Shown: positions 4,657-18,421 of the stretch, one piece after another
How the letters are laid out: every line of letters starts with the position of its first letter
Position numbering within the stretch: position 1 is the stretch's first letter
From: Lysobacterales bacterium
GTDB taxonomy: Bacteria; Pseudomonadota; Gammaproteobacteria; Xanthomonadales; SZUA-36
Assembly (NCBI GenBank): GCA_011524975.1
Contig: WTJD01000174.1
Location: forward strand, 1 to 35,738
Length of the DNA: 35,738 nucleotides
Direction: 5' to 3'
Translations under genes and position numbers: made by a program
Notes under the pieces: model-generated
Database searches by the model: none
Told to the model about the DNA's origin: nothing
Seen by the model: only the letters and a program-made list of their open reading frames with translations

Positions 4657-6195
4657 TTGGACGGCGTAGCGCTCAGTCTGTTTTCCAGCAGGGTCGCGGC
4701 CATTTGCGAAGAGGCCGGGGCGATGCTGGGCCGCGTGGCTTTTTCACCGAATATCCGGGATCGCCTGGACTATTCCTGTGCGCTGTTCGACGCGTCGGGC
4801 CGCTTGCTGGGCCAGGCGACTCACATGCCGGTTCACCTTGGCAGCATGGCGTACGCCATGGTGGACCTCGTGCAGTCCCGCAGCTGGGCGCCGGGCGACA
4901 TGGTCGTGTTGAACGACCCCTATCGAGGAGGAACCCACCTGCCCGACGTGACCTTCGTGGCCCCGATTTTCGTCGGTGACCAGATCGCCGGATTCAGCGC
5001 CAATCGCGCCCACCACGTGGATATCGGCGCGGACGCTCCCGGGTCTATGCCGTTGAGCCACGACCTGTCGGAAGAGGGCATCCTGCTGGCTCCGGTCAAG
5101 ATCGTCCACAACGATGAATGGGTCGCGGAGGTGCTGGAGCCTATTCTGGACCGATTGAATGACCGGGCTGCCTCGCTGGGTGATTTCAGCGCCCAGGTCG
5201 CCGCCAACCGGCTGGCGGCCGGACGCCTGCGGCACCTGGTGGAAGGCATGGGTTTGGAACATTTTCAGAGCAGCTGCGCTGAACTTCAGCGCTATGCCCG
5301 GCAATTGGCCAGAGACAGCCTGGCGCGCTTGCCCAACGGCCGTTTTCGGTTTACCGACTTGATGGATGACGATGGAATGGGCAACACCGACATCGCGATA
5401 CGGGTGACCATCGACATCGGGGAGGCTGAAGTCCAGGTGGATTTCAGTGGCACCGCGGAGCAGGTGCAAGGCAATCTGAATTGCCCGCTGCCGGTGACGG
5501 CGGCAGCGGTTTTTTACGTTTTTCGCTGCCTGATGCCCGATCATGTGCCGCCGTGCCATGGCGCCATGGAAGATATCCACCTGGTCGCGCCGGCCGGTTG
5601 CCTGGTCAACGCCAGGCCGCCCGCCGCGGTGGCGGCGGGCAATGTCGAAACCAGCACGCGCATCGTCGACGTGGTGTGTGGCGCACTGGCCACGGTGGTG
5701 CCAGAGCGCATCGGGGCCGCCGCTCAGGGCACCATGAATAACCTGGCGATGGGTGTTCGCGGAGACAGCGGCTGGGATTACTATGAAACCATCGCCGGTG
5801 GTCACGGCGCCAGTGCGGGCGCCAACGGTCGCCATGCCCGACACAGTCACATGACCAACACGCTCAATACCCCGGTCGAGATACTGGAGTTGAATTACCC
5901 GCTGTGGGTCGAGGCGTATGCGCTTCGTCCTGCGTCGGGCGGTCGCGGCCAGTTCAACGGCGGTGACGGGGTCATCAGAAGCTATCGCTTTCTGTCCGAC
6001 GCGGATGTGACCATCCTGAGCGAGCGCCGGCGTCACGCTCCCTGGGGCCTTGAGGGCGGTGAGGCGGGCGCCCGCGGAAACAATCGGCTGGATGGACAGG
6101 ACATCGGCGGAAAGTTTTCCAGCCGGGTTCGGGCCGGCCAGTTGCTGCAAGTGTTCACGCCAGGTGGCGGCGGTTACGGAAGCCCCGAGACCTGA
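4657..6195 (+). CDS. hyuB: hydantoinase B / oxoprolinase family subunit (HyuB-like)
   Basis: This 512-residue protein belongs to the hydantoinase B/oxoprolinase family, the beta subunit of ATP-dependent enzymes that open cyclic amides such as N-methylhydantoin or 5-oxoproline; the same family includes acetone carboxylase subunits. Family marks include ATHMPVHLGSM, GDMVVLNDPYRGGTHLPDV, NRAHHVDIG, GNVETSTRIVD, ETIAGGHGA and the C-terminal TPGGGGYG. The N-terminus LDGVALSLFSSRVAAICEEA aligns with the usual MDPVTLEVFRNRLxAIAEEM, which supports the TTG at 4657. The frame is open upstream to about 4555 but has no other start codon. The alpha subunit HyuA, normally next door, is absent from the window. 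It is convergent with rnt, 21 bases away. The substrate cannot be inferred. Confidence 0.85.
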   Translation: MDGVALSLFSSRVAAICEEAGAMLGRVAFSPNIRDRLDYSCALFDASGRLLGQATHMPVHLGSMAYAMVDLVQSRSWAPGDMVVLNDPYRGGTHLPDVTFVAPIFVGDQIAGFSANRAHHVDIGADAPGSMPLSHDLSEEGILLAPVKIVHNDEWVAEVLEPILDRLNDRAASLGDFSAQVAANRLAAGRLRHLVEGMGLEHFQSSCAELQRYARQLARDSLARLPNGRFRFTDLMDDDGMGNTDIAIRVTIDIGEAEVQVDFSGTAEQVQGNLNCPLPVTAAAVFYVFRCLMPDHVPPCHGAMEDIHLVAPAGCLVNARPPAAVAAGNVETSTRIVDVVCGALATVVPERIGAAAQGTMNNLAMGVRGDSGWDYYETIAGGHGASAGANGRHARHSHMTNTLNTPVEILELNYPLWVEAYALRPASGGRGQFNGGDGVIRSYRFLSDADVTILSERRRHAPWGLEGGEAGARGNNRLDGQDIGGKFSSRVRAGQLLQVFTPGGGGYGSPET

Positions 6196-6216: not shown

Positions 6217-6822
6217 TTACATCCCGGTCAGGATTTTCCAGCGATTGACCGCCGAGCAGAACAGGTCAGCGGTCTTTTCCGCGTCATAGGCTGCTGAATG
6301 CGCATTCGCTTCGTTCCACTCCAGGCCGGCGGCTTGCACCGCGCGTGAGAGGACGGTCTGGCCGAAGACCAGCCCACCAATGGTGGCCGTATCAAATGAA
6401 CTGAACGGATGGAACGGGCTGCGCTTGTAAGCGGTACGCTCGATCATGGCGTTCAGGAAACCCAGGTCAAAGATCGGGTTGTGCGCGACCATGATGGCGC
6501 GCTGGCATCCGGTGGCACGAACTTCTTTGCGCACAGGCAGGCAGATTTGACGCAGGGCTTCTTTTTCGACCAGGGGGTTGCGCTCAGGGTCGTCGAGGTC
6601 GATGCCTGTGAATTCCAGGGATCGGGGGTCGATCACGGCACCCTCGAACGGTTTTACATCCACGGAAATGGTTTCCGCCCTTCGCAAACGCCCAAAATCA
6701 TCCATCTGGAGCACGCAAATGGCCACTTCGAGCACGGCATCGGTGCCCGGATTGAAGCCTCCGGTTTCCAGGTCGAGTACGACCGGCAGGAAACCCCTGA
6801 AGCGGTCTGCGATAGATGGCAT
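6217..6822 (-). CDS. rnt: ribonuclease T
   Basis: Ribonuclease T is a 3'-5' exoribonuclease that trims the CCA end of tRNA and matures 5S and 23S rRNA 3' ends. The 201-residue protein has the DEDDh exonuclease residues in the expected places: D17 and E19 in LDLETGG, D119 in HNPIFD, H175 and D180 in HSAAYDAEKTA. Close agreement with the E. coli enzyme runs through RAIMVAHN, KRSPFHPFSSFDTA and FCSAVNRWK. The ATG at 6822 gives the usual N-terminus (DRFRGFLPVV). An upstream extension in the same frame has no family resemblance and overlaps the divergent gene. Only 42 bases separate it from the divergent TraB-family gene, so the two promoters must be close or overlapping. Confidence 0.95.
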   Translation of the reverse strand: MPSIADRFRGFLPVVLDLETGGFNPGTDAVLEVAICVLQMDDFGRLRRAETISVDVKPFEGAVIDPRSLEFTGIDLDDPERNPLVEKEALRQICLPVRKEVRATGCQRAIMVAHNPIFDLGFLNAMIERTAYKRSPFHPFSSFDTATIGGLVFGQTVLSRAVQAAGLEWNEANAHSAAYDAEKTADLFCSAVNRWKILTGM

Positions 6823-6864
6823 ATACTGTTTGGCTTGTGCAGCTGAGGCAGGCTGGGAGCATAA

Positions 6865-7788
6865 GTGAATAGACCGAAAATTGCCACGCGGAGTTGGTCG
6901 AATGTCCCGATGGCCGGGTTGCGGCTGCTGCTGGCGTGGATGCTGTTGGCGGCACCGCTGGCAAATGCCGCGGGCACGCCCGTGTTCTGGTCGGTGGCCC
7001 GTGACGGCGAGCACCTGGGTTATTTGCTGGGAACCATTCACAGCGAAGACGCCAGGGTACTGGAATACGCCCGGCCTTTTCTCGACAGCTTGACGGGCAG
7101 CCGGGTATTCGCCATGGAGCTTGTGCCCGATCTGCCGACCCTGGCGGCACTGGCTGAGAGGATGCAGTTGCCGGAAGGCCAGGACCTTGAGCAGGTGGTC
7201 GGTCCACTGAGATTCGCGGCCGTTCAGGAGGCCTTGGCCTCCTACGGTGTTCCGGCTGCCCAGGCGCAGCGCATGCAGCCCTGGGCGGCAATGATGACCC
7301 TCAGCGTGCCGCCGCCCAAAACCGGCTTGTTCATGGACTTCTCGCTGTCACTGCGCGCGTCCGGTGCAGGCGTCCGCGTCATCGGCCTGGAGACGCTGGA
7401 TGAGCAGTTGTCGTTTCTCGAGGGTATGAATCTCGATCAGCAGTTGGCCATGCTGGACCACGCGATCGAGGAGTCGGGCAGGACCCAGCAGGTCCATGAC
7501 GAACTGGTGGACATTTACCTGGCCGGAGACCTGCAGGTGTTGCACGACCACGCCATGGAGCAACTGCTGGAGGTTGACGAGGCCGCCCGTGAAACGTTCC
7601 TGCAACAGGGCATTGTGCTGCGCAATCGTCGCATGCTGGAGGCCGCGGAACCGCACCTGCAAGGTGGCGGCGCATTCATCGCCGTCGGGTCATTACACCT
7701 GACGGGCGAGACCGGTCTGCTGAAACTGTTGAGTGACTCCGGTTACGATCTCGAGCCCGCCGGCTGGCCGTTTATCGCGAAACCGTGA
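6865..7788 (+). CDS. exported TraB/GumN family protein
   Basis: The product is a 307-residue member of the TraB/PrgY/GumN (TIKI-like) superfamily. The two family GxxH motifs are present: LLGTIHSED near residue 55 and [18 protein letters not shown] near 275, with conserved acidic residues (FAMELVPD) between. TIKI relatives in animals are metal-dependent proteases; bacterial members are mostly uncharacterised. An N-terminal hydrophobic segment ([19 protein letters not shown]) looks like a signal peptide, so it acts outside the cytoplasm. The GTG at 6865 is supported by GGGAG five bases upstream; an ATG at 6910 is the alternative. The 3' end overlaps that of the convergent hvfX by 17 bases. No functional link to the hvf operon is shown by this overlap. 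Confidence 0.82.
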
Positions 7789-8440
7789 GCTTCAGGCCCA
7801 GCGCGGCCGCGACAGCGAACAGGACGCCACCCCAGATGGGCTCGACCCACACGGTCGCAAGGCCCAAAACGGTGAACACCATCGCCGTGCCAGCGGTGTC
7901 TATGGCCGCCCGGTCCTGTGGGTCGCCACGCTGACTCATCAGCACGAGGACACGGTCGAGACTGATGCGCCCCCCGCCGTGAAACAGCAGAGGCAGCAGC
8001 ATGATGAGGAACAACAACGGCAGCTTGTAATTCCCGGCACCCTTGGCGGTAATCACATACCCTTCCCACAGTGCCTCCAGGCTGTCCCACTCCGCCGGCC
8101 AGTGCACCGCGGCGGTCGCCACCATGGTGATCACGATCAGTGACACGGCAGCGAAACGCGTGAACAGCCCCAACAGCAGGGCGATGGAAAACAGGATCTC
8201 GGCCCAGGTGGCCATGAACCAGTTGATATCGGTTGGCAGCACGTCAAACGGGAACGGAAAGCCCTTTTGCCAGCCAGCCCAGGGGATTTCTCCAAACCAG
8301 TTTTCGCCGCGCAGCTTGGTGATGCCAGCCTCCCAAAACTCCCAAAACAGAATGAGACGCAGGCCCAGTGGCCAGATGTATTCGCCGGCGGTACGCAGGC
8401 GCCGGGTCGTCGAGTCATATCCGTTGAGGACGTTCATCAT
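7772..8440 (-). CDS. hvfX: HvfX-like DoxX family membrane protein
   Basis: The 222-residue product is an inner-membrane DoxX-family protein with about five hydrophobic helices, among them [61 protein letters not shown] and [12 protein letters not shown]. It is the last gene of the hvfABCX operon, and DoxX proteins occupy this position in many copper-RiPP (bufferin) clusters. The exact role is unsettled; supplying reducing power or helping export or maturation are proposals only. The ATG at 8440 has GGGAGT seven bases upstream, and a second ATG follows directly at 8437. The gap to the hvfC stop is 25 bases. A longer frame reaching into hvfC is not credible because the ribosome binding site lies within it. 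Confidence 0.82.
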
Positions 8441-8465
8441 TTGCTTACTCCCATAGGGCGTGACT

Positions 8466-9254
8466 TCATACCGGCCGCGTGCCAAGAATGATCTCTCGCG
8501 TCTGGAAATCCGCCAGGACCTGCTTGCCGCCGCCGATGACCACGTCCGGGTCGGGGTGATTGATCTCCCCGGCCAGGCGCTTCAGTACGTCAAGACCGGT
8601 GAGGGCGCCAGGTTCTTTCAAAATGTGTATCAGCAGCAGGGAAACCGCGTTCAGCTGCATGAAGTTGACCTTGTCCCGACGGTTTCGGTAGACGAGCAGG
8701 TGCGTGGCTTCCCCGGGCGCGTCCTGGGGTTGGAACTCGGGCCGAATCTGGTGAACCGGGTATCGGTAACTCAGCGGCCAGGCCAGGGGCGACAGCACGG
8801 GCTGCTCCGCCAGCAGATCGCCCTCAGGGTTGGCGTCGATGGCGTCCAACTCCTGTTCGTCCAGCGACAGGGCCAACTCCACCCACTCGTAGTGAGCCAG
8901 TTCCAGCATGAATGGCGGGTCCCCCGGTTCCGGCGCGCGTTCGTCCTGCAGGTACTTCAGAAATTCACGTGCGATTTCGGGAAACAGCGGTGTTGTGGAA
9001 CGATGATGGTGGTAGAACGCCCGCGTCAGGCTGTCCCAGGCATCGTCGTCGTGCAGTTTTCTTAATACCGGGAAGTTGCCGGACAGAAAATTGCGGATAT
9101 TGCGGAAGAACAGTCCGCGGTAGATCTCCATGCGGCGGTCTTCGATGCCGCCTGGGGCGGGGTGCTGATCCGGGGCGCGCAGGTGGGCTGCGAATGATTC
9201 GAGCGCCTGGCGCAGGGATTCAGGCGGTTCTTTGTCCCTGGGGTTTCGCATCAT
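8466..9254 (-). CDS. hvfC: HvfC, DUF2063 partner of the RiPP maturase
   Basis: This 262-residue protein has the DUF2063 (HvfC/BufC N-terminal) pattern, seen as [21 protein letters not shown] and [19 protein letters not shown], followed by a second mixed domain with [16 protein letters not shown] and [17 protein letters not shown]. In characterised relatives the DUF2063 protein pairs with the MNIO enzyme and probably recruits or presents the precursor peptide. The coding sequence overlaps the end of hvfB by 35 bases in another frame, which suggests coupled translation and a fixed ratio of the two proteins. Two adjacent ATG codons (9254 and 9251) are possible starts. No metal-binding motif stands out. 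The assignment rests on the family pattern plus operon position, both strong here. Confidence 0.88.
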
Positions 9255-10083
9255 GGTTCTCGCGGCCTGCCTGGGCCGCGTGGATCAATTGGACTTCCGC
9301 CAGCAGGTCAGGGACCGGGGGGAAATTGAAATCGCGCTCCAGCAGCGTGGGAAACACGCCGAAGCAATGGTAGGCCTCATCCAGCAGGGCCCAGACGTTG
9401 TCGATGACACCGGCACCGTGCGTATCGACAATCAGGTCCTCCGCCTCGCTGTAATGACCTGCAATGTGTCCGTAGCAAATGCGCTCACCGGGCAGGCCCT
9501 TGAGGAATTCAACGGGGTCGTAGCCGTGGTTCACGCTGTTGACGTAAATGTTGTTCACATCCAGCAGGAGATCGCAGTCCGCTTCCTCCACCACCGCGTT
9601 GATGAATTCCAATTCGCTCATCTCAGCGCCGGGCGCGGCATAGTAAGACACATTCTCGATGCCGATGCGCCGGTTGAGCAACTCCTGAGTGCGACGAATT
9701 CTTCCCGCGACATAATGCACCGCCTCCTCGGTGAACGGGATGGGCATGAGGTCATACAGGTGCCCGCCGTCGGTGCAATAGCTGAGGTGCTCGGTGTAAA
9801 CGCGCACCTTGTGTGTTTCCAGAAAATGACGGATGCGTCGGATGAAGGTCTCATCCAGGGGCTCCGGCCCGCCAAGTGACAGGGAGAGTCCGTGGCACAC
9901 GAAGGGGAAACGCTCAGTGAATGCCCGCAGCTGTCGGCCGAAACGGCCGCCGACACCGATCCAGTTGTCCGGCGCCACTTCCATGAAGTCGACCTGCGAC
10001 AGGTCGCAATCCTGAAGCGGGCCCAGCAGGGCCCGCCTCAGACCAAGTCCGGCACCTTCGACGAGATAAGCGCTTTGCTTCAT
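9220..10083 (-). CDS. hvfB: HvfB, MNIO-family (DUF692) RiPP maturase
   Basis: This 287-residue protein is a DUF692 multinuclear non-heme iron oxidative enzyme (MNIO), the family of MbnB. In related HvfABC and bufferin systems it uses O2 and a bi- or tri-iron centre to convert cysteines of the precursor into copper-binding heterocycles (oxazolone/thioamide or thiooxazole). Likely metal-site motifs are in order: H64 in [10 protein letters not shown]98-H99 in YTEHLSYC, E143 in IENVSYY, D175 and N178 in DVNNIYVN, H206 and H210 in GHIAGH, D220 and H222 in VDTHG, and E249 in LLERDFNFP. The fold is a TIM barrel in known members. The start is the ATG at 10083, 33 bases after the hvfA stop; a TTG two codons earlier is an alternative. 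No strong Shine-Dalgarno sequence is visible, so translation may be kept below that of hvfA. Confidence 0.93.
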
Positions 10084-10116
10084 GGGCAAAGGGTCGTGGT
10101 GCTCACGGCAACGGTT

Positions 10117-10470
10117 TTACGCGCCGCCGCACTTGCCCTCGCCGCACTTGCCTTCGCCGCACTTGCCTTCTTCACCCTTGTCGTCATCACCGTGGCCTTC
10201 GCCGCACTTGCCCTCGCCACATTTGCCCTCGCCGCACTTGCCTTCTTCACCCTTGTCGTCATCACCGTGGCCTTCGCCGCACTTGCCCTCGCCACATTTG
10301 CCTTCTTCACCCTTGCCGTGATGGGCGGCCAGCATGTAACCCGTGTCGAGATCGGACATCGCGAACGGATTTTCATCAGCGTGGGCAGTTGTGCTGATGG
10401 CCAGTGAGGAAACGAATGCAACGCCAACGGCAGCTGCGACGGGTTTGATGATTTGCTTCTTGATCGCCAT
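10117..10470 (-). CDS. hvfA: HvfA/bufferin precursor with eight EGKCG core motifs
   Basis: This is the 117-residue precursor of a post-translationally modified copper-binding peptide. Residues 1-31 form a signal peptide ending AHA, followed by DENPFAMSDLDTGYMLA, the short conserved stretch typical of HvfA/bufferin-1 precursors. From residue 53 to the end the protein is almost pure repeat: eight EGKCG units with cysteines at 59, 64, 79, 84, 89, 104, 109 and 114, in clusters of two, three and three, split by two GHGDDDKGE spacers. These are the only cysteines. In characterised relatives the EGKCG cysteines are the modified residues that bind copper. An excellent ribosome binding site GGAGG lies nine bases before the ATG. 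It is the first gene of the operon, as expected for a product needed in excess of its enzymes. Modification and metal binding are inferred from family. Confidence 0.93.
   Translation of the reverse strand: MAIKKQIIKPVAAAVGVAFVSSLAISTTAHADENPFAMSDLDTGYMLAAHHGKGEEGKCGEGKCGEGHGDDDKGEEGKCGEGKCGEGKCGEGHGDDDKGEEGKCGEGKCGEGKCGGA
10123..10314 (-). repeat. nested tandem repeats encoding EGKCG clusters
   Basis: The core of hvfA is a two-level DNA repeat. The small unit is 15 bases (one EGKCG). The large unit is 75 bases, encoding KGEEGKCG, two further EGKCG units and then EGHGDDD (residues 73-97). The preceding copy (residues 53-72) is 60 bases and lacks one small unit. The final copy ends in GGA instead of the spacer. 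Such repeats are prone to expansion and contraction by slippage or recombination without loss of frame. Confidence 0.9.
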
Positions 10471-10739
10471 GGGTGGGAACCTCCAAAGTTTTCCGTGCCG
10501 GGTGTCTTCCCGGCTTCAGGTTTACGGCGCCCTCAGGCGCCCGTTGATCACGATATTGACTGTGCGTTCGGTGTTGCCGGAAATCCGCTCTGCCACACCA
10601 ATCGCTCAGTCTAACTGCAGCGTGGCCATTTTCCCATTATTCGGGCGCGTGGCAGCGCTGTTGATAGATAGACCGGATTCGGTCGGATTTGATTACACCG
10701 CTCGGTGAAAGAAACGATCTGCGGGATGAGCCGAGCGGC
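10471..10739 (-). promoter_or_regulatory. hvfA upstream region with two short hairpins
   Basis: The gap between nth and hvfA (269 bases) has no gene. Two perfect inverted repeats lie just before the hvfA ribosome binding site: GCCGGG/CCCGGC with a six-base loop at 10497-10514, and GGCGCC/GGCGCC with a four-base loop at 10526-10541. Both would fold in the 5' leader of the transcript. I found no convincing sigma-70 pair or metal-regulator operator on this strand, so the promoter may use an ECF sigma factor, as has been described for some bufferin operons; this is an inference. Confidence 0.4.
10698..10738 (-). terminator. inverted repeat just after nth, possible weak terminator
   Basis: CCGCTCGG at 10698-10705 pairs with CCGAGCGG at 10731-10738, a perfect eight-base GC-rich stem with a 25-base loop, starting two bases beyond the nth stop codon. 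There is no U-rich tract after it, so it is not a standard intrinsic terminator. It may protect the 3' end or reduce read-through into hvfA. Confidence 0.3.
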
Positions 10740-11372
10740 TCAAACCCGTTTTTTTCCGTGGCGGCAAAGATCTCGCACAATGCACTCATCGCAATGGGGC
10801 TTGCGGGCCGTGCAAACGTAGCGACCATGCAGAATCAGCCAGTGATGGGCATCTTTCAGAAAGGGTTCCGGGACGTTCTTCAGCAGCTTTCTCTCCACGG
10901 CCAGCGGCGTTTTACCGGGCGCCAGGCCTGTTCGGTTCGAAACTCTGAAGATATGGGTGTCAACCGCGATGGTGGGTTCGCCAAATGCAGTATTGAGTAC
11001 GACATTGGCGGTTTTGCGCCCCACGCCAGGGAGTGCCTCCAGCGCTTCTCTCTCTCGCGGCACCTCTCCGTCGTGCTTGTCGAGCAGGATGCGGCAGGTC
11101 TTGATGATATTGGCTGCCTTGGTGTTGAACAGGCCAATGGTGCGAACGTAATCGCGCAGCGTGTCCTCGCCCATGTCGAAAATGGCCTGTGGCGTATTGG
11201 CCACGGGGTACAGGCGCCGGGTCGCCCGGTTCACGCCGACGTCGGTGGCTTGTGCTGAGAGGATGACCGCCACCAGCAACTCGAAGGGTGAGTCATATTC
11301 GAGTTCCGTCGTCGGCCGCGGATTGTTGTCCCGCAGCCGCTGAAAAAACGCCTGTCGATCGGCCAGGTTCAA
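10740..11372 (-). CDS. nth: endonuclease III (DNA glycosylase/AP lyase)
   Basis: Endonuclease III removes oxidised pyrimidines from DNA and cuts the strand at the abasic site. The 210-residue protein matches the E. coli enzyme in length and position: the helix-hairpin-helix LPGVGRKTANVVL with catalytic K120, D138 in VDTHIFR, and the C-terminal [4Fe-4S] loop with C187, C194, C197 and C203. The start is a TTG at 11372 that overlaps the rsxE stop as TTGA, so translation is probably coupled to the rsx operon. The rsxABCDGE-nth order is the same as in E. coli. The last residues GKKRV are basic, which may help DNA contact. Confidence 0.97.
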   Translation of the reverse strand: MNLADRQAFFQRLRDNNPRPTTELEYDSPFELLVAVILSAQATDVGVNRATRRLYPVANTPQAIFDMGEDTLRDYVRTIGLFNTKAANIIKTCRILLDKHDGEVPREREALEALPGVGRKTANVVLNTAFGEPTIAVDTHIFRVSNRTGLAPGKTPLAVERKLLKNVPEPFLKDAHHWLILHGRYVCTARKPHCDECIVRDLCRHGKKRV

Positions 11373-12052
11373 GCGGCCCCCAGCGCCTTGTTCAAGACGG
11401 TCGACCTACGCGAACGGCGCGTCTGCAGCCAATTGCGCGCGGCCACCAGCAGGCCCAGCCCAATAAAGGCGCCCGGCGGGAGAATGGCCAGGAGGAAGCC
11501 CTCGTAATGGGGCAGGACGGTCAGTTCCAGTGCGCGACCGGCTTCGCCAAACATGAGATGGGCTTGTGACAGCAGCGTCCCACGCCCGAGCAGTTCACGC
11601 AGGGCTCCGAGCAGCACCAGGGTAAGGCAGAATCCCAGTCCGGTGGCCAGGCCGTCAACCATGGCGGCCAGCGGGTGATGCCGGGACGCAAAGGCTTCGG
11701 CCCGGCCGATAATGGCGCAGTTGGTCACAATCAGAGGTATGAAGATGCCGAGCACGCGATACAGGTCGTGCACAAACGCCTGCATGAGCAACTGGATGAC
11801 CGTGACCACAGAGGCGATGATCAGCACAAAGGCCGGAATGCGAATCTCCGGACGCAGCAGGCCGCGCAGCCATGAGACGGACAGGTTGGAAGCAACCAGG
11901 GTCAGCAGGGTCGCAAGACCAAGGCCCAGGCCGTTGACCACCGTGCCGGTCACCGCCAGCAGCGGGCACAGGCCGAGCAGCACCACGAGCCCGGTATTCT
12001 GGTGCCAGAGACCGTCCATGAAAACCTGCTTTAAACGGGGGCGTTCAGTCAT
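11369..12052 (-). CDS. rsxE: Rsx/Rnf complex subunit E
   Basis: RsxE (RnfE) is an integral inner-membrane subunit of the Rnf-type electron-transfer complex. The 227-residue product has about six membrane helices and the conserved segments TGLVVLLGLCPLLAVT, YRVLGIFIPLIVTNCAIIGRAEAFAS and GTLLSQAHLMFG. The cysteines in GLCPLLA and TNCAII correspond to residues that, in Rnf structures, hold an iron-sulphur cluster in the membrane between RnfA and RnfE. The ATG at 12052 lies inside the end of rsxG (eight-base overlap). A longer open frame upstream is only a shadow of rsxG. The C-terminus is a basic, cytoplasmic tail (RRSRRS). Confidence 0.95.
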   Translation of the reverse strand: MTERPRLKQVFMDGLWHQNTGLVVLLGLCPLLAVTGTVVNGLGLGLATLLTLVASNLSVSWLRGLLRPEIRIPAFVLIIASVVTVIQLLMQAFVHDLYRVLGIFIPLIVTNCAIIGRAEAFASRHHPLAAMVDGLATGLGFCLTLVLLGALRELLGRGTLLSQAHLMFGEAGRALELTVLPHYEGFLLAILPPGAFIGLGLLVAARNWLQTRRSRRSTVLNKALGAA

Positions 12053-12698
12053 CGCGTTTCTGCTCGTTGCGCCGGTACAGGGCATCCCTGTTGGCCTGAT
12101 GATATTCCAAGGCGCGCTGTACTGCTTCAACCACGGCCCGGGGCGTGATCGTGGCGCCAGTGAACTGGTCGAAGACGCCGCCGTCTCGCGTGACACCCCA
12201 GTGCTCCGGTTCAGGGTCTTCCAGTGAGCGGCCTGTGAACGCCAGTATCCAGTCACTGCGTTCCGCTTCGATAGGGTCTCCCAATCCTGGCGTTTCCCTG
12301 TGCGATACCACCCGCACGCCGCTGATGCGGCCGTCGGCCAGGATACTGGTGAGAAGTTGGATGTCGCCGTTGTAACCATCCGGCGCTACATGGTCGAAAA
12401 CAACCGCCACGGGCTGCTCGCCCTTGCGGGCGCGGTACACGCGCACAGCCCCATCATTTCGAGAAAGGCTGTCGTGCCTGAGGGTCAGGGTATCTCCCAG
12501 CGGGTCGTTGTCGTATGCGCCTTCCGGTAATACCCGCCCCAGTTGCCTGATGAGCGCCTGGCGTTCCTGTTCCGCGATCCGCTCCCGCGTCAATTCGTTG
12601 ACCGCTGCCAACAGCCCCGTTCCGAGAATGGCGATCAGCGCAAGTAAGCCTGCGCTGGACAAGACCTGATGTGCCACCCCGGTGGTTTTCCCGCTCAT
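12045..12698 (-). CDS. rsxG: Rsx/Rnf complex subunit G, covalent flavoprotein
   Basis: RsxG carries a covalently bound FMN on the periplasmic side of the complex. The 217-residue protein has one N-terminal membrane helix (LLALIAILGTGLLAAV) and an FMN-binding domain with the attachment motif TGAT, T183 being the expected flavin-linked threonine. HRETPGLGDPIE is a further conserved family segment. The ATG at 12698 overlaps the rsxD stop as ATGA. Attachment of FMN normally needs an ApbE flavin transferase; no apbE is in this window, so it would have to be elsewhere. Confidence 0.95.
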   Translation of the reverse strand: MSGKTTGVAHQVLSSAGLLALIAILGTGLLAAVNELTRERIAEQERQALIRQLGRVLPEGAYDNDPLGDTLTLRHDSLSRNDGAVRVYRARKGEQPVAVVFDHVAPDGYNGDIQLLTSILADGRISGVRVVSHRETPGLGDPIEAERSDWILAFTGRSLEDPEPEHWGVTRDGGVFDQFTGATITPRAVVEAVQRALEYHQANRDALYRRNEQKRDD

Positions 12699-13729
12699 GT
12701 CCCGTACGCCCTGGGCCGTGTATACCGGTCGATCAAGGGCGCCGCCATGTTCATCAGCAGCACGGCGAATGCGACACCGTCCGGGTAGCCGCCCCACTGG
12801 CGAATGACCAGGGTGATCAGGCCGACACCCAGGCCAAACCACAGCCTGCCGAGGTTGCTGGTGCAACCCGATACCGGGTCGGTGGCGATGAAGAAGGCGC
12901 CCAGCATCAGCGCGCCGGAAAAAAGGTGTTGCGCGGGAGAGAGGTGCGTCACCGGGTCCAACAGCCAGAAGGGCAGGGTGACGGCAGCCACGACGCCCAG
13001 CGTGGATACGGGAACCTGCCAGGTGATGATTCTCCGCGCGAGCAGGTAAAGCCCGCCCGCCAGGTATGCGGCTGCCACCCACTCCCATCCCATCCCGCCG
13101 AACTGGCCAAATACAGGCGACTGCATGATCTCCGGCAGGGATTCGCCGGCATGCATGCCGGTTTTCAGGGTATCGAGCGGGGTCGCCTGGGTGATGCTGT
13201 CCCAGCTCACACCCTCCGGCAGCGCGCCGTGCAAGATCGCCGCCAGCGTCTCGTTGAAGCTCAGCGAGTGCGTTGAAAGATCGGCCGGGGCCTGCCACCG
13301 GGTCAGGTATTTGGGGAAACTGATGAGAACGACCACGTAGCCGATCATGGCCGGGTTGAACACGTTCTGGCCCAGGCCGCCGTACAGGTGCTTGGCAACA
13401 ACGATGGCCATCAGCATGGCCACGGCCGAGATCCACCAGGGTGCCAGCGGCGGTATACACAAGGCGAACAGCACGGCCGTGACGACGGCTGAACCGTCAC
13501 CCAGAAAGCGCGCAATGCTGCGCTCACGCATGCGCAGCATCAACGCCTCAAAGCCCAGCGCGAAGCCGGTCGCCAGCGCGATTTGCACCAGCACGCCGGG
13601 GCCGAAGAACACGATTTGCAGCAGGATGCCGGGAATCAGCGCGTATAACACCTGGCGCATCACCTGGCCGACGGTCGCCGTCGACGGGATGTGTGGCGCC
13701 TGGCTGGTTTTGAATGCCTGTCGCTTCAC
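12695..13729 (-). CDS. rsxD: Rsx/Rnf complex subunit D
   Basis: RsxD is a polytopic inner-membrane subunit with a covalent FMN. The 344-residue protein has about ten hydrophobic helices and the conserved segments YGGLGQNVFNPAMIGY, TQATPLDTLKTG and GAFFIATDPVSG. T183 in the ATPLD motif is the likely flavin-linked residue by comparison with characterised RnfD. The start is a GTG at 13729 overlapping the rsxC stop (GTGA). AGGAG sits directly before the GTG, which is closer than normal; no better start is available, so coupled translation is likely. Confidence 0.95.
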   Translation of the reverse strand: MKRQAFKTSQAPHIPSTATVGQVMRQVLYALIPGILLQIVFFGPGVLVQIALATGFALGFEALMLRMRERSIARFLGDGSAVVTAVLFALCIPPLAPWWISAVAMLMAIVVAKHLYGGLGQNVFNPAMIGYVVVLISFPKYLTRWQAPADLSTHSLSFNETLAAILHGALPEGVSWDSITQATPLDTLKTGMHAGESLPEIMQSPVFGQFGGMGWEWVAAAYLAGGLYLLARRIITWQVPVSTLGVVAAVTLPFWLLDPVTHLSPAQHLFSGALMLGAFFIATDPVSGCTSNLGRLWFGLGVGLITLVIRQWGGYPDGVAFAVLLMNMAAPLIDRYTRPRAYGT

Positions 13730-15252
13730 CTCCTGACCTCCTCGTTGGGGACAGGCGTCTTCTTTTTCGCGGCGCTCCGCTCCCGCAATGCCTTTTTCTT
13801 GGCCGCCAGGCGCTCACGTTTTTCCTGTTTCTGCCGTTCCAGCCGTGCTGCGCGGGCATCAAATCGTTCTCGCGCGTGGTCGGCCGCGGCGCGTTCCCGA
13901 GCCTGCGCTTTGAGTTGCCCCTTGCCATGTCTGAACCAGGCCGCGAGTGGGATATGGCTGGGGCAGACAAAATCGCAGCAGCCGCACTCAATACAGGCGC
14001 GCAGGTGGTGGTCCGCGGCGGCCTCCCATTGCCCGGTGCGAACCTGCCACTGCAACTGCTGTGGCAGCAGGCCGGCCGGGCAGACGCGGGCACATTCCCC
14101 ACAGCGTATGCAGGGCATTTCCGGTTGCGGGGCTCTCAGGTCGTCGGCTGAAAGCACCAGCAGGCAATTGCTGGCCTTAACCACGGGCTCGCTGTCCGAT
14201 CGCAGGCTGAACCCCATCATCGGCCCCCCGACCACCAGGCGGTCCGCGTCGTCGCGGTAACCGCCGCAGTGATGCACCAGGTGCGATACCGGGGTGCCAA
14301 TCAGCGCCAGCAGATTGCGTGGCTCAGCAACGCCATGCCCCGTTACCGTCACGTAACGCTCGATCAGCGGTCGTCCGCGGATGACGGCGTCGGCCACCGC
14401 GGCGGCGGTGCCGACATTCTGCACCAGGATGCCCAGGTCGGCCGGAAGTCCGTCCGCCGGCACTTCCTGTCCGGTCAGTACCTGGATCAGCTGTCTTTCA
14501 CCACCCTCGGGATAGATGGCAGGCACTTTGACCAGTTCGATGTCCGTGGCCTCGCCGACGGCCTGCTGCAGGGCGTCGAATACGGCGCCCATCTGGTCTT
14601 CGATGGCCAGGATGACGTGCTCCGCGCCACTGGCCCGCTGCAGCACCCTGGCGCCGTCGATGACCCGGTGGGGCTCCTCCCGCATCAGCATCTCGTCGCA
14701 GCTGATATAGGGCTCGCATTCAGCGCCGTTGAGCAGCAGCGTCCGGGTACCCCGTACTCGGCCAAGCGACGCTTTTTGATGGGTGGGGAAGACGGCTCCA
14801 CCCAGGCCGACCACGCCCGCTGCGCACAGGGCGTCGAGCAGGTCCCGGGGTTCGCGGGTCTGCCAGTCCGTGACGGGTGACGGTTCACACCAGCGGTCCT
14901 GACCGTCCGGTTCAATCACGACGCACGGTCCCGACCGGCCGGAAGGATGGCTCATGGGTCGATGCTCAATGGCGCGGACGGTTCCCGACGTGGGCGCGTG
15001 CACGCTCACGCCGCCGCTGCAGTCCACCTCGCCCAGGCGCTGGCCTTTAAGCACCCGGTCGCCAGCCTGGACGAGCGCCTGCGCGGGCAGACCAAGGTGT
15101 TGTTGCAGGGGCACGATCAGGACGTCAGGCAGAACCGGGCGCTCCACAGGCCGCGCACAGGAAACCTGTTTGTGGTGACGCAGCCGCAGGCCGCCGCGCA
15201 AGCGGTGCAAAAACCGCCCCCCGGGCGTGCCGGCATCGTGAGGAACGCTCAT
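13726..15252 (-). CDS. rsxC: Rsx/Rnf complex subunit C, iron-sulphur flavoprotein
   Basis: RsxC is the peripheral, cytoplasmic subunit that exchanges electrons with NADH. The 508-residue product has the RnfC N-terminal barrel ([20 protein letters not shown]), an NADH/FMN-binding Complex1_51K-like domain ([27 protein letters not shown]) and two [4Fe-4S] motifs, [12 protein letters not shown] and [12 protein letters not shown]. The tail is only a short Lys/Arg/Ala stretch, unlike the long repeated extension of E. coli RsxC. The ATG at 15252 has GGAGG six bases upstream and overlaps the rsxB stop as ATGA. The frame runs further upstream, but only as a shadow of rsxB. Confidence 0.95.
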
Positions 15253-15803
15253 TGCACACCTCCGGCGGCCGGTCGGCCGGGTTCCGGCCAGGCCCAGACC
15301 GTACCGTCCTGATCCGGGATGACCATTGCGATACAGTCCACGGGGCAGGGGGGCAGACACAGGTCGCAGCCCGTGCATTCCTGCTCGATCACGGTATGCA
15401 TCAGCTTGGCCGCGCCGACGATGGCGTCGACAGGACAGGCCTGTATACACAGCGTGCAGCCGATACAGGCCTGTTCGTCGATCACAGCCACCGTGGTGGG
15501 TTGTTCTTCGCCATTTTCCGGGTTCAATGGCTTTGGCTCACGGCCGAGCAGGTCCGCCAAGGCGCGAATGCCGGCCTCACCTCCGGGTGGGCACTGGTTG
15601 ATGTCCGCCTCATCGCTGGCGATGGCTTCCGCATAGGGCCGGCAGCCCGGGTATCCGCATTGACCGCATTGCGTCTGGGGCAAAATCGCGTCGATCTGAT
15701 CGATCACCGGGTCGGACTCGACCCGGAAACGGACCGCGGCCCAGCCCAGCCCCAGGCCGATTAGCAAGCCCAATGCCAGCAATGTAACAACGGCGATGAG
15801 CAT
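15249..15803 (-). CDS. rsxB: Rsx/Rnf complex subunit B, ferredoxin-like
   Basis: RsxB is the polyferredoxin subunit that receives electrons on the cytoplasmic face of the membrane. The 184-residue protein has an N-terminal membrane helix ([19 protein letters not shown]), a [4Fe-4S] domain with CGQCGYPGC and a later cysteine in NQCPPGG, and two ferredoxin motifs [12 protein letters not shown] and [12 protein letters not shown]. Length and motif spacing are normal. The ATG at 15803 follows the rsxA stop by a single base. Confidence 0.97.
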
Positions 15804-15804
15804 G

Positions 15805-16386
15805 TCAGAGGTTGGCCAGGCCGTTAAAGCCCATGAACGCCAGGGCCATCAGGCCTGCTGTAACCAGACCGATGGACGCTCCCCGGAAGTGCAGCGGTAC
15901 ATCGGCGTAGGCGAGCCTTTCCCGCATGGCCGCGAACATGACCAGCACCAGGCCGAAGCCCGCGGCCGCGCCAAATCCGTACAGGGCGGATTCCAGCAAG
16001 TTGTGCTGCTCTTGCAGGTTGAGCAGGGCAACACCAAGGACAGCGCAGTTGCTGGTGATCAGTGGCAGAAAGATGCCGAGCACGCGGTAGAGCAGGGGGC
16101 TCGTTTTGCGCATGATCATTTCCGTCAGCTGAACCATCGCGGCGATGACCAGTATGAAGCCCAGCGTGGACAGGTACTCAAGGCCCAGTGGGTGCAGCAC
16201 GTAGGTGAACAGCAGGTAGCTGGACACCGAAGACAATGTCAGGACGAAACCGGTGGCCACGGCCATCCCGATAGCGCCCTCCAGCTTGGTGGAAACGCCC
16301 ATGAAGGGACACAGGCCGAGAAACCGGACCAGCACGAAGTTGTTCGCCAGCACCGTACTGACCAGGATCAGCAACTCTTCCTTCAT
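15805..16386 (-). CDS. rsxA: Rsx/Rnf complex subunit A
   Basis: RsxA is a six-helix inner-membrane subunit, homologous to RsxE with inverted topology. The 193-residue protein shows [18 protein letters not shown] and [19 protein letters not shown]; the cysteines in these two segments are those that face the intramembrane iron-sulphur centre in Rnf structures. It begins 16 bases after the metG stop, so metG and the six rsx genes may share a transcript. No strong Shine-Dalgarno sequence is visible before the ATG at 16386. Confidence 0.97.
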
Positions 16387-16402
16387 GTGACCGGTATCGC
16401 TG

Positions 16403-18421
16403 TCAGGTCACTCGCAGACCCGGTATGGCGCCGTCATCCGGGCTGAGAAGATACAGGTCCGCACCGCCCGATCCGGCAGCCAGTACCATGCCCTCTGATA
16501 CGCCGAAGCGCATTTTCCTTGGCTTGAGGTTGGCCACCATGACGGTGAGCCGGCCTTCCAGCTGCTCTGGTTCATAGGCCGACTTGATACCCGCGAACAC
16601 CGTGCGCGTCTCGCCGCCGAGGTCGAGTTCCAGCTTGAGCAGCTTGTCCGCCTCGGGCACGTGCTCGGCGCGAACGATTCTGGCCACGCGCAGGTCCACC
16701 TTGAGAAACTCGTCGATGCCGATTTCCTCGGCCAGGTCGAGTGTTGGCGCCTGTGGCTCGCTTGCGGGTTTGAGCGATTCGCGCGAGGCCTCGACCATGG
16801 CTTCCACGCGCGCCGGGTCGATCCTGGCCATCAGCGGCTCGAAAGCATTGATCGCGCAGCCCGCCATCGGCTGGTCGAGGTCGGACCATGGGCCCACATC
16901 CACCCCCAGAAACCGGGACGCTTTTTCCGCGGTGTGCGGAATGGCCGGCGCCAGCAGGGTGATCAGCACGCGGAACAGGTTGATGCCCTGTGAGCACACC
17001 GCCTGCACCTCATCGTCCCTGCCGTCCTGCTTGATCATCTGCCACGGCTTGTGGTCATCGATGTAGCGATTGGCCTCGTCCGCCAGGGCCATGATGCGGC
17101 GGATGGCGGCCTGGTAGTTACGCCCCTCGAAGTCTGCTGCAATCTCGCCGCGCGCGTCGATGAACCGCTGGTATAGATCCGGCTGGGGCAGCGTGCCGGC
17201 CAGCTGATTGTCAAACCGCTTTTGTATGAAACCGGCGCAGCGGCTGGCGATGTTGACCACTTTTCCCACGAGGTCGGAGTTGACCCGCTGCGCGAAATCA
17301 TCGAGGTTCAGGTCGATGTCGCTGGTGCCCGCACCCAGCTTGGCGCAGAAGTAGTAGCGCAGATAGTCGGGATTCAGGTGGTCGAGGTAGGTGCGCGCCT
17401 GAATGAATGTGCCGCGGGACTTGGACATCTTGGTGCCGTCCACGGTGAGGAAACCATGCGCGTACACCGCCGTCGGTGTGCGAAAACCGGAGCCCATGAG
17501 CATGGCCGGCCAGAACAGCGTGTGAAAGTACATGATGTCCTTGCCGATAAAGTGGTAGATCTCGGCGTCGGAGCCTGGCCCCCACCACTCGTCGAAATCC
17601 AGGCCGCGATCCTCGCACAGCTCCAGGAAGCTGGCCATGTAGCCGATGGGCGCGTCCACCCAGACGTAGAAATACTTGTCTTCGGTGTCGGGGATTCTGA
17701 AGCCGAAATAAGGCGCGTCACGTGTGATGTCCCAATCGCGCAGGCCGTCGGCGAACCATTCGTCAATCTTGTTGACGACCTCTTTTTGCAGCTGGCCGCC
17801 GGTGAGCCACTGTTTGAGGCGATCCTCGAAATCACCGAGGCGGACGAAATAATGCTCTGAATCCCGCATGACGGGGGCGGTGCCTGACACCGCGCTGCGA
17901 GGCTCGATCAGGTCGGTGGGGGCGTAAGTGCTGCCGCAGGACTCGCAGGAATCGCCGTATTGATCCTCAGATTTGCACTTGGGGCAGGTCCCGCGAATAA
18001 ACCGGTCAGGCAGGAACATGCCTTCTTCTTCATCGAAGAATTGCGAGATGGTTTTTCGCTCGATATGGCCGCCTTCCCGCAGGCGTTTGTAAATGGTCTC
18101 TACCAGTTGCTGGTTCGCCGGCGAGTGCGTTGACGAGTAGTGGTCATAGCTGAGCCCGAAGTCGCGGAAGTCGCGCTGGTGTTCCTCCTGCATCCGATCG
18201 ATCAGTGCTTCGGGCGTGATCCCGGATTTCTGGGCGCTCAGCATGATGGGGGTGCCGTGCGCGTCATCCGCCCAGGCAAAATAGCATTCGTGCCCCTGGG
18301 CTCTCTGAAAGCGGGCCCAGATGTCGGTCTGGACGAATTCCAGCATGTGGCCTATGTGAATGGCTCCGTTGGCGTAGGGCAGCGCGCTGGTCAACAGGAT
18401 TTTTCTATGTTTCTCGGTCAT
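16403..18421 (-). CDS. metG: methionyl-tRNA synthetase
   Basis: This class I synthetase charges tRNA-Met with methionine. The 672-residue, full-length protein has the HIGH motif (H22-H25), a zinc knuckle with CPKC and CESCG, the KMSKS motif within [12 protein letters not shown], and an anticodon-binding helical domain. The C-terminal ~105 residues form a Trbp111-like tRNA-binding domain ([30 protein letters not shown]) used for dimerisation. The ATG at 18421 fits the family N-terminus. It is divergent from apbC across a 181-base gap, the same arrangement as in many gammaproteobacteria. Confidence 0.98.

Follow-up and report, generated by a model that had tools for sequence, protein, structure and literature searches.

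An HvfABCX-type operon encoding an EGKCG precursor, with a candidate hairpin in the hvfA leader, in a Lysobacterales genome

Gene content of the locus and its EGKCG precursor

The window analyzed in this study is the whole 35,738-nucleotide stretch of contig WTJD01000174.1 from a Lysobacterales bacterium. ORF and profile analysis of the window identified a complete four-gene set, hvfA-hvfB-hvfC-hvfX, encoded in that order by the minus strand:

10117..10470, minus strand: hvfA, precursor peptide of 117 aa
9220..10083, minus strand: hvfB, MNIO (DUF692) diiron oxidative enzyme of 287 aa
8466..9254, minus strand: hvfC, DUF2063 / PME-type-1 partner protein of 262 aa
7772..8440, minus strand: hvfX, DoxX-family membrane protein of 222 aa

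A four-gene set on one strand had been proposed in the original prediction, and all four family models were matched, three of the proteins scoring above the NCBIfam cut-offs as HvfB, HvfC and HvfX. The MNIO matched PF05114 (MbnB_TglH_ChrH) in Pfam with E=5e-102 and NF003818 with 440.9 bits (cut-off 360). The PDB search identified 3bww as the nearest solved MNIO (E=1e-72), which is itself a close relative of HvfB (PMC13419390). The MNIO motifs had been called intact, and this was borne out by an alignment of 100 sequences in which the His, Glu, Asp and Asn positions (H64, E98/H99, E143, D175/N177/N178, H186, H206, H210, D220/H222 and E249) were at least 97% invariant. Judged from the motif alone, D220/H222 of the window protein appear to correspond to the essential D242/H244 of HvfB. 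The partner protein, the 5' part of whose gene overlaps the end of hvfB, matched PF09836 (DUF2063, E=3e-24) and PF22106/NGO1945_C (E=1.5e-31) in Pfam, NF050145 with 310 bits (cut-off 142) and PDB 3dee with E=1e-11.

The membrane protein HvfX matched PF07681 (DoxX, E=8e-18) and NF050144 (130 bits, cut-off 80). Its ATG start is preceded by GGGAG as a Shine-Dalgarno sequence, while an alternative TTG start would extend the gene to 8485; at its 3' end, hvfX overlaps a convergent traB-like gene by 17 bp. Aligned columns revealed conserved charged and aromatic residues, including E34, E37, K42, H113, W114 and Y128. The structural model was all-helical (pLDDT 73), and a fold search with it against the PDB gave no significant match.

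The earlier label of "HvfABCX/bufferin-type" stood in its first half. The BufB equivalog model NF050167 gave 252 bits, below its cut-off of 310, and the locus was therefore assigned to the HvfB type and not to the strict bufferins. The operon is of a kind that is already published (oxazolin, fontiphorin and gonophorin, which are captophorins with 5-thiooxazole groups), to which the window locus adds a member. Together, we hold with high confidence that this is a chromosomal HvfABCX operon (captophorin, EGKCG type) for a periplasmic copper-binding modified peptide, the modification, export and copper role being attributed to it by analogy with relatives. Genes A, B and C were found in order at 92 of 110 loci, with X next in 54 of those 92. 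In some relatives an EGKCG precursor gene does not adjoin hvfB but is set off from it, about 2.4 kb upstream (L076, 2285-2794 and 5244-6044; L087, 648-1343 and 3734-4558).

The precursor was identified as such by KCGExKCG_twice (NF050137; E=3e-16, 58.8 bits against a cut-off of 19.5), while the HvfA equivalog model NF050188 gave 41.2 bits, below its cut-off of 95. A Sec-type signal was read by eye, with cleavage expected after AHA, and an alignment showed the segment NPFAMSDLDTGYMLA (NPF...DLDTGYMLA) to be conserved among relatives. The core comprises eight EGKCG motifs and two EGHGDDDKGE spacers, and every one of the eight Cys residues lies inside an EGKCG. The exported EGKCG-repeat peptide of the original prediction was supported. 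The Cys spacings (5, 15, 5, 5, 15, 5 and 5) are all multiples of five. By inspection, the five-residue register is preserved across the spacers; the same register is common to 11 precursors of the relative set, that of the window included. The gene contains a tandem unit of 75 bp, or 25 residues, with three EGKCG motifs. Since the copies are 96% alike, the sequence suggests a recent expansion of the repeat array, and a relative from the same genus (L003) has 10 Cys in its precursor.

The core had also been considered unusually long, a claim that did not survive comparison. In length and Cys number the window HvfA lay close to the medians for 82 unique relatives (120 aa and 7 Cys, with 60% at least as long, in a set that includes a few badly parsed sequences), and the published range is 31-506 aa and up to 58 Cys (PMC12452194). 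A published type with a 17-residue repeat and a predicted beta-helix was also considered, but is unlike HvfA, which has a 25-residue unit and a Cys spacing of 5/15. AlphaFold2 modeled HvfA as disordered (pLDDT 45, weak evidence from a shallow alignment) and gave no confident beta-helix.

Two variations on the precursor were observed in other genomes. In two members of the Ectothiorhodospiraceae (L072, ~5401-5973; L074, ~5287-5979), a pair of EF-hand-like loops (DADGDGS and DANSDG) lies within the EGKCG array, flanked by EGKCG on both sides; EF-hands in published precursor fusions are C-terminal (PMC12452194). In three other relatives, EGSCG occurs in place of many of the EGKCG motifs (L018, 827-1480, about 12; L022, 2384-2839; L025, 1093-1473), and given these replacements, the EGSCG branch may in nature do without the Lys that precedes the Cys.

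Inheritance of the locus and the role of its product

The order metG-rnf-nth-hvfABCX-traB-rnt (window 6217-18421) was kept in all five of the close relatives compared, and the block is partly retained in Gammaproteobacteria further removed, Thiogranum among them. A relative of HvfB was identified in 56 of 61 related genomes, or 43 of the 45 of good quality. Based on this synteny and distribution, hvfABCX is a stable, vertically inherited chromosomal trait in the group. A mobile or plasmid origin was rejected, as searches of a plasmid collection gave weak partial matches only and the synteny argues against it. The analysis of the genome found a single MNIO (the sole PF05114 protein), a single EGKCG precursor and a single DoxX protein, and a search for a second MNIO or a second EGKCG precursor there found none. 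With this locus, a gammaproteobacterial family known mainly from metagenome assemblies gains an example that is single-copy and vertically inherited, and there it looks like a part of core physiology, not an optional stress cassette.

The original prediction drew on related systems in which EGKCG cysteines are converted to copper-binding heterocycles. By homology a copper-binding product is supported, with the refinement that the ring is now assigned as 5-thiooxazole: in PMC13097082, the EGKCG products from Fontimonas, Haemophilus and Neisseria contain 5-thiooxazole and those tested bind copper, the earlier oxazolin structure is revised and the name captophorins is proposed. For Microbulbifer mmrABC, a loss of four H per Cys has been reported (PMC12538549).

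Based on these relatives, HvfA would be synthesized with its Sec signal and brought by HvfC to HvfB, which HvfC would also help to attain its active diiron state. HvfB would then oxidize the EGKCG cysteines to 5-thiooxazoles, with eight possible sites and about 4 Da lost at each. These steps are consistent with PMC13419390, in which HvfC is required to reach the active diiron state, a mixed-valent one, and HvfA lacking its signal is modified only poorly, in line with the signal peptide serving as the leader. In relatives, activity is weak when either the signal peptide or HvfC is missing. The modified peptide would pass through Sec into the periplasm, and there its thiooxazole sulfurs would bind copper and lower its toxicity, and HvfX, as an inner-membrane DoxX protein, would give help at the membrane.

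Copper protection at the window locus is what we infer from the relatives. The window genes covered by the scan include no copper-responsive regulator or copper gene, and homologues of copper-exporting ATPases lie elsewhere in the genome, separate from the hvf locus. Copper detoxification cannot be assumed for every family member, since the Microbulbifer mmr genes were reported as unexpressed and their role as unproven (PMC12538549). The modified peptide might instead serve mainly against oxidative or thiol stress, or in supplying copper to respiratory enzymes. The locus is a constant neighbor of rnf and nth, whose functions concern redox and oxidized DNA, and in a different setting a DoxX homologue has been tied to stress of an oxidative or sulfur kind (PMC12452194). 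However, this neighborhood may reflect plain vertical inheritance, and the characterized EGKCG and bufferin products bind copper (PMC13097082), so we consider such a role unlikely. That HvfA is exported largely unmodified, its eight free-thiol candidates and His and Asp spacers acting in the manner of a metallothionein, is highly improbable, as the adjoining hvfB and hvfC, both intact and strongly conserved, would be pointless without modification.

A hairpin in the hvfA leader

Upstream of hvfA, two perfect inverted repeats were identified:

10497..10514, minus strand: hairpin HP2, GCCGGG-AAGACA-CCCGGC, 26 nt before the ATG of hvfA and immediately 5' of the Shine-Dalgarno sequence
10526..10541, minus strand: hairpin HP1, GGCGCC-TGAG-GGCGCC

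The evidence for HP1 is weaker (p=0.007 against controls), while the GC-rich HP2 is at an enriched position. Stems whose 3' end falls 26-31 nt ahead of the ATG averaged a score of 13.1 in 29 hvfA leaders, compared to 8.6 for the 319 control genes (p=1.4e-8), and the enrichment was also found in a comparison with 60 controls taken from same-family genomes (p=1.6e-6); these p-values overstate independence through kinship, as nearly all 29 leaders are from one family, and the sequences used to test the position were those in which it had first been spotted by eye. In the comparison with the 319 controls, only the 26-31 nt bin was enriched, its neighbors having no enrichment. Over a wider range of positions, a stem score of at least 12 was found in 27 of the 29 leaders against 39% of controls, and more distant hvfA genes had a weaker enrichment at 26-37 nt.

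The 27 leader hairpins have 12 distinct 5' arms, as judged by the first four bases. A MAFFT alignment of the leaders scrambled the hairpin arms and an arm-anchored test was used instead: swapped arms paired in 21% of cases, compared to the 100% that own arms have by selection. Overall folding energy of the leader was ordinary when compared to shuffles (z of about -1.1), and the evidence for the hairpin is therefore its position and the complementarity of its arms, not its stability. Searches of the leader for a known riboswitch or RNA family found no Rfam match up to E=5.

A -10-like TTAGACT was found about 144 nt upstream of hvfA (window ~10608-10614, minus strand), and 11 of the 29 leaders have either TGNTAGNCT or TTAGACT at about 144-166 nt ahead of hvfA. 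From their sequence these are candidate extended -10 promoters, and a start from such a site would place the hairpin inside a leader of 130-155 nt.

Based on these observations, the hairpin is a candidate for an RNA element that influences how the HvfA precursor is expressed, and as part of the mechanism above it may set the amount of precursor from its place in the messenger ahead of the ribosome-binding site. Our tentative reading, offered with more doubt than confidence, is that this positionally fixed hairpin, often with a second one upstream, is an undescribed RNA element of the hvfA messenger in this gammaproteobacterial family, which would control precursor production at the level of translation, stability or attenuation and might respond to metal or redox state. 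A different reading is that the hairpin is an intrinsic terminator or attenuator governing read-through into hvfA. In one genus (L014, L024, L027, L030 and L117) a T run does follow directly after the hairpin, before the Shine-Dalgarno sequence. However, such a run is absent in most genera; HP2 itself is without one and was not called by the terminator scan, and we consider the terminator reading quite improbable. We found no published description of a hairpin ahead of hvfA, and the parts read of the EGKCG-cluster papers do not deal with the control of clusters whose operon includes no regulator gene. For such clusters, the conserved leader hairpin offers a direct, testable entry to their regulation.

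Comparison with known systems

The bufferins Buf1 and Buf2 of the Caulobacter type resemble the window locus in their Sec signal, MNIO, DUF2063 protein and, in many clusters, DoxX protein, and by analogy the 5-thiooxazole would probably be shared as well. They differ in precursor family and in belonging to the BufB model, and the window locus has no sigma or anti-sigma genes. Bulbicupramide (MmrABC, Microbulbifer) also has EGKCG cassettes, an MNIO with a DUF2063 protein and Cu(I) binding, the last of which may by analogy apply to the window product. Its cassettes have two Cys with KKK, whereas the window has blocks of three Cys, acidic His-containing spacers and, in addition, hvfX.

Fontiphorin (FonABC, Fontimonas thermophila) likewise combines EGKCG repeats with an MNIO and PME1, and its seven sites are converted to 5-thiooxazole; the number of repeats differs from that of the window precursor. 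Oxazolin (HvfABC/HvfX, Haemophilus influenzae) has, like the window, an EGKCG precursor with a Sec signal, an HvfB-type MNIO, a DUF2063 partner and a DoxX-family HvfX. Compared to oxazolin, the window HvfB is without the insertion present in 3BWW, a close relative of the oxazolin HvfB, and the window precursor has eight modifiable Cys instead of six, with EGHGDDDKGE spacers, encoded at a locus that is vertically fixed beside nth/rnf.
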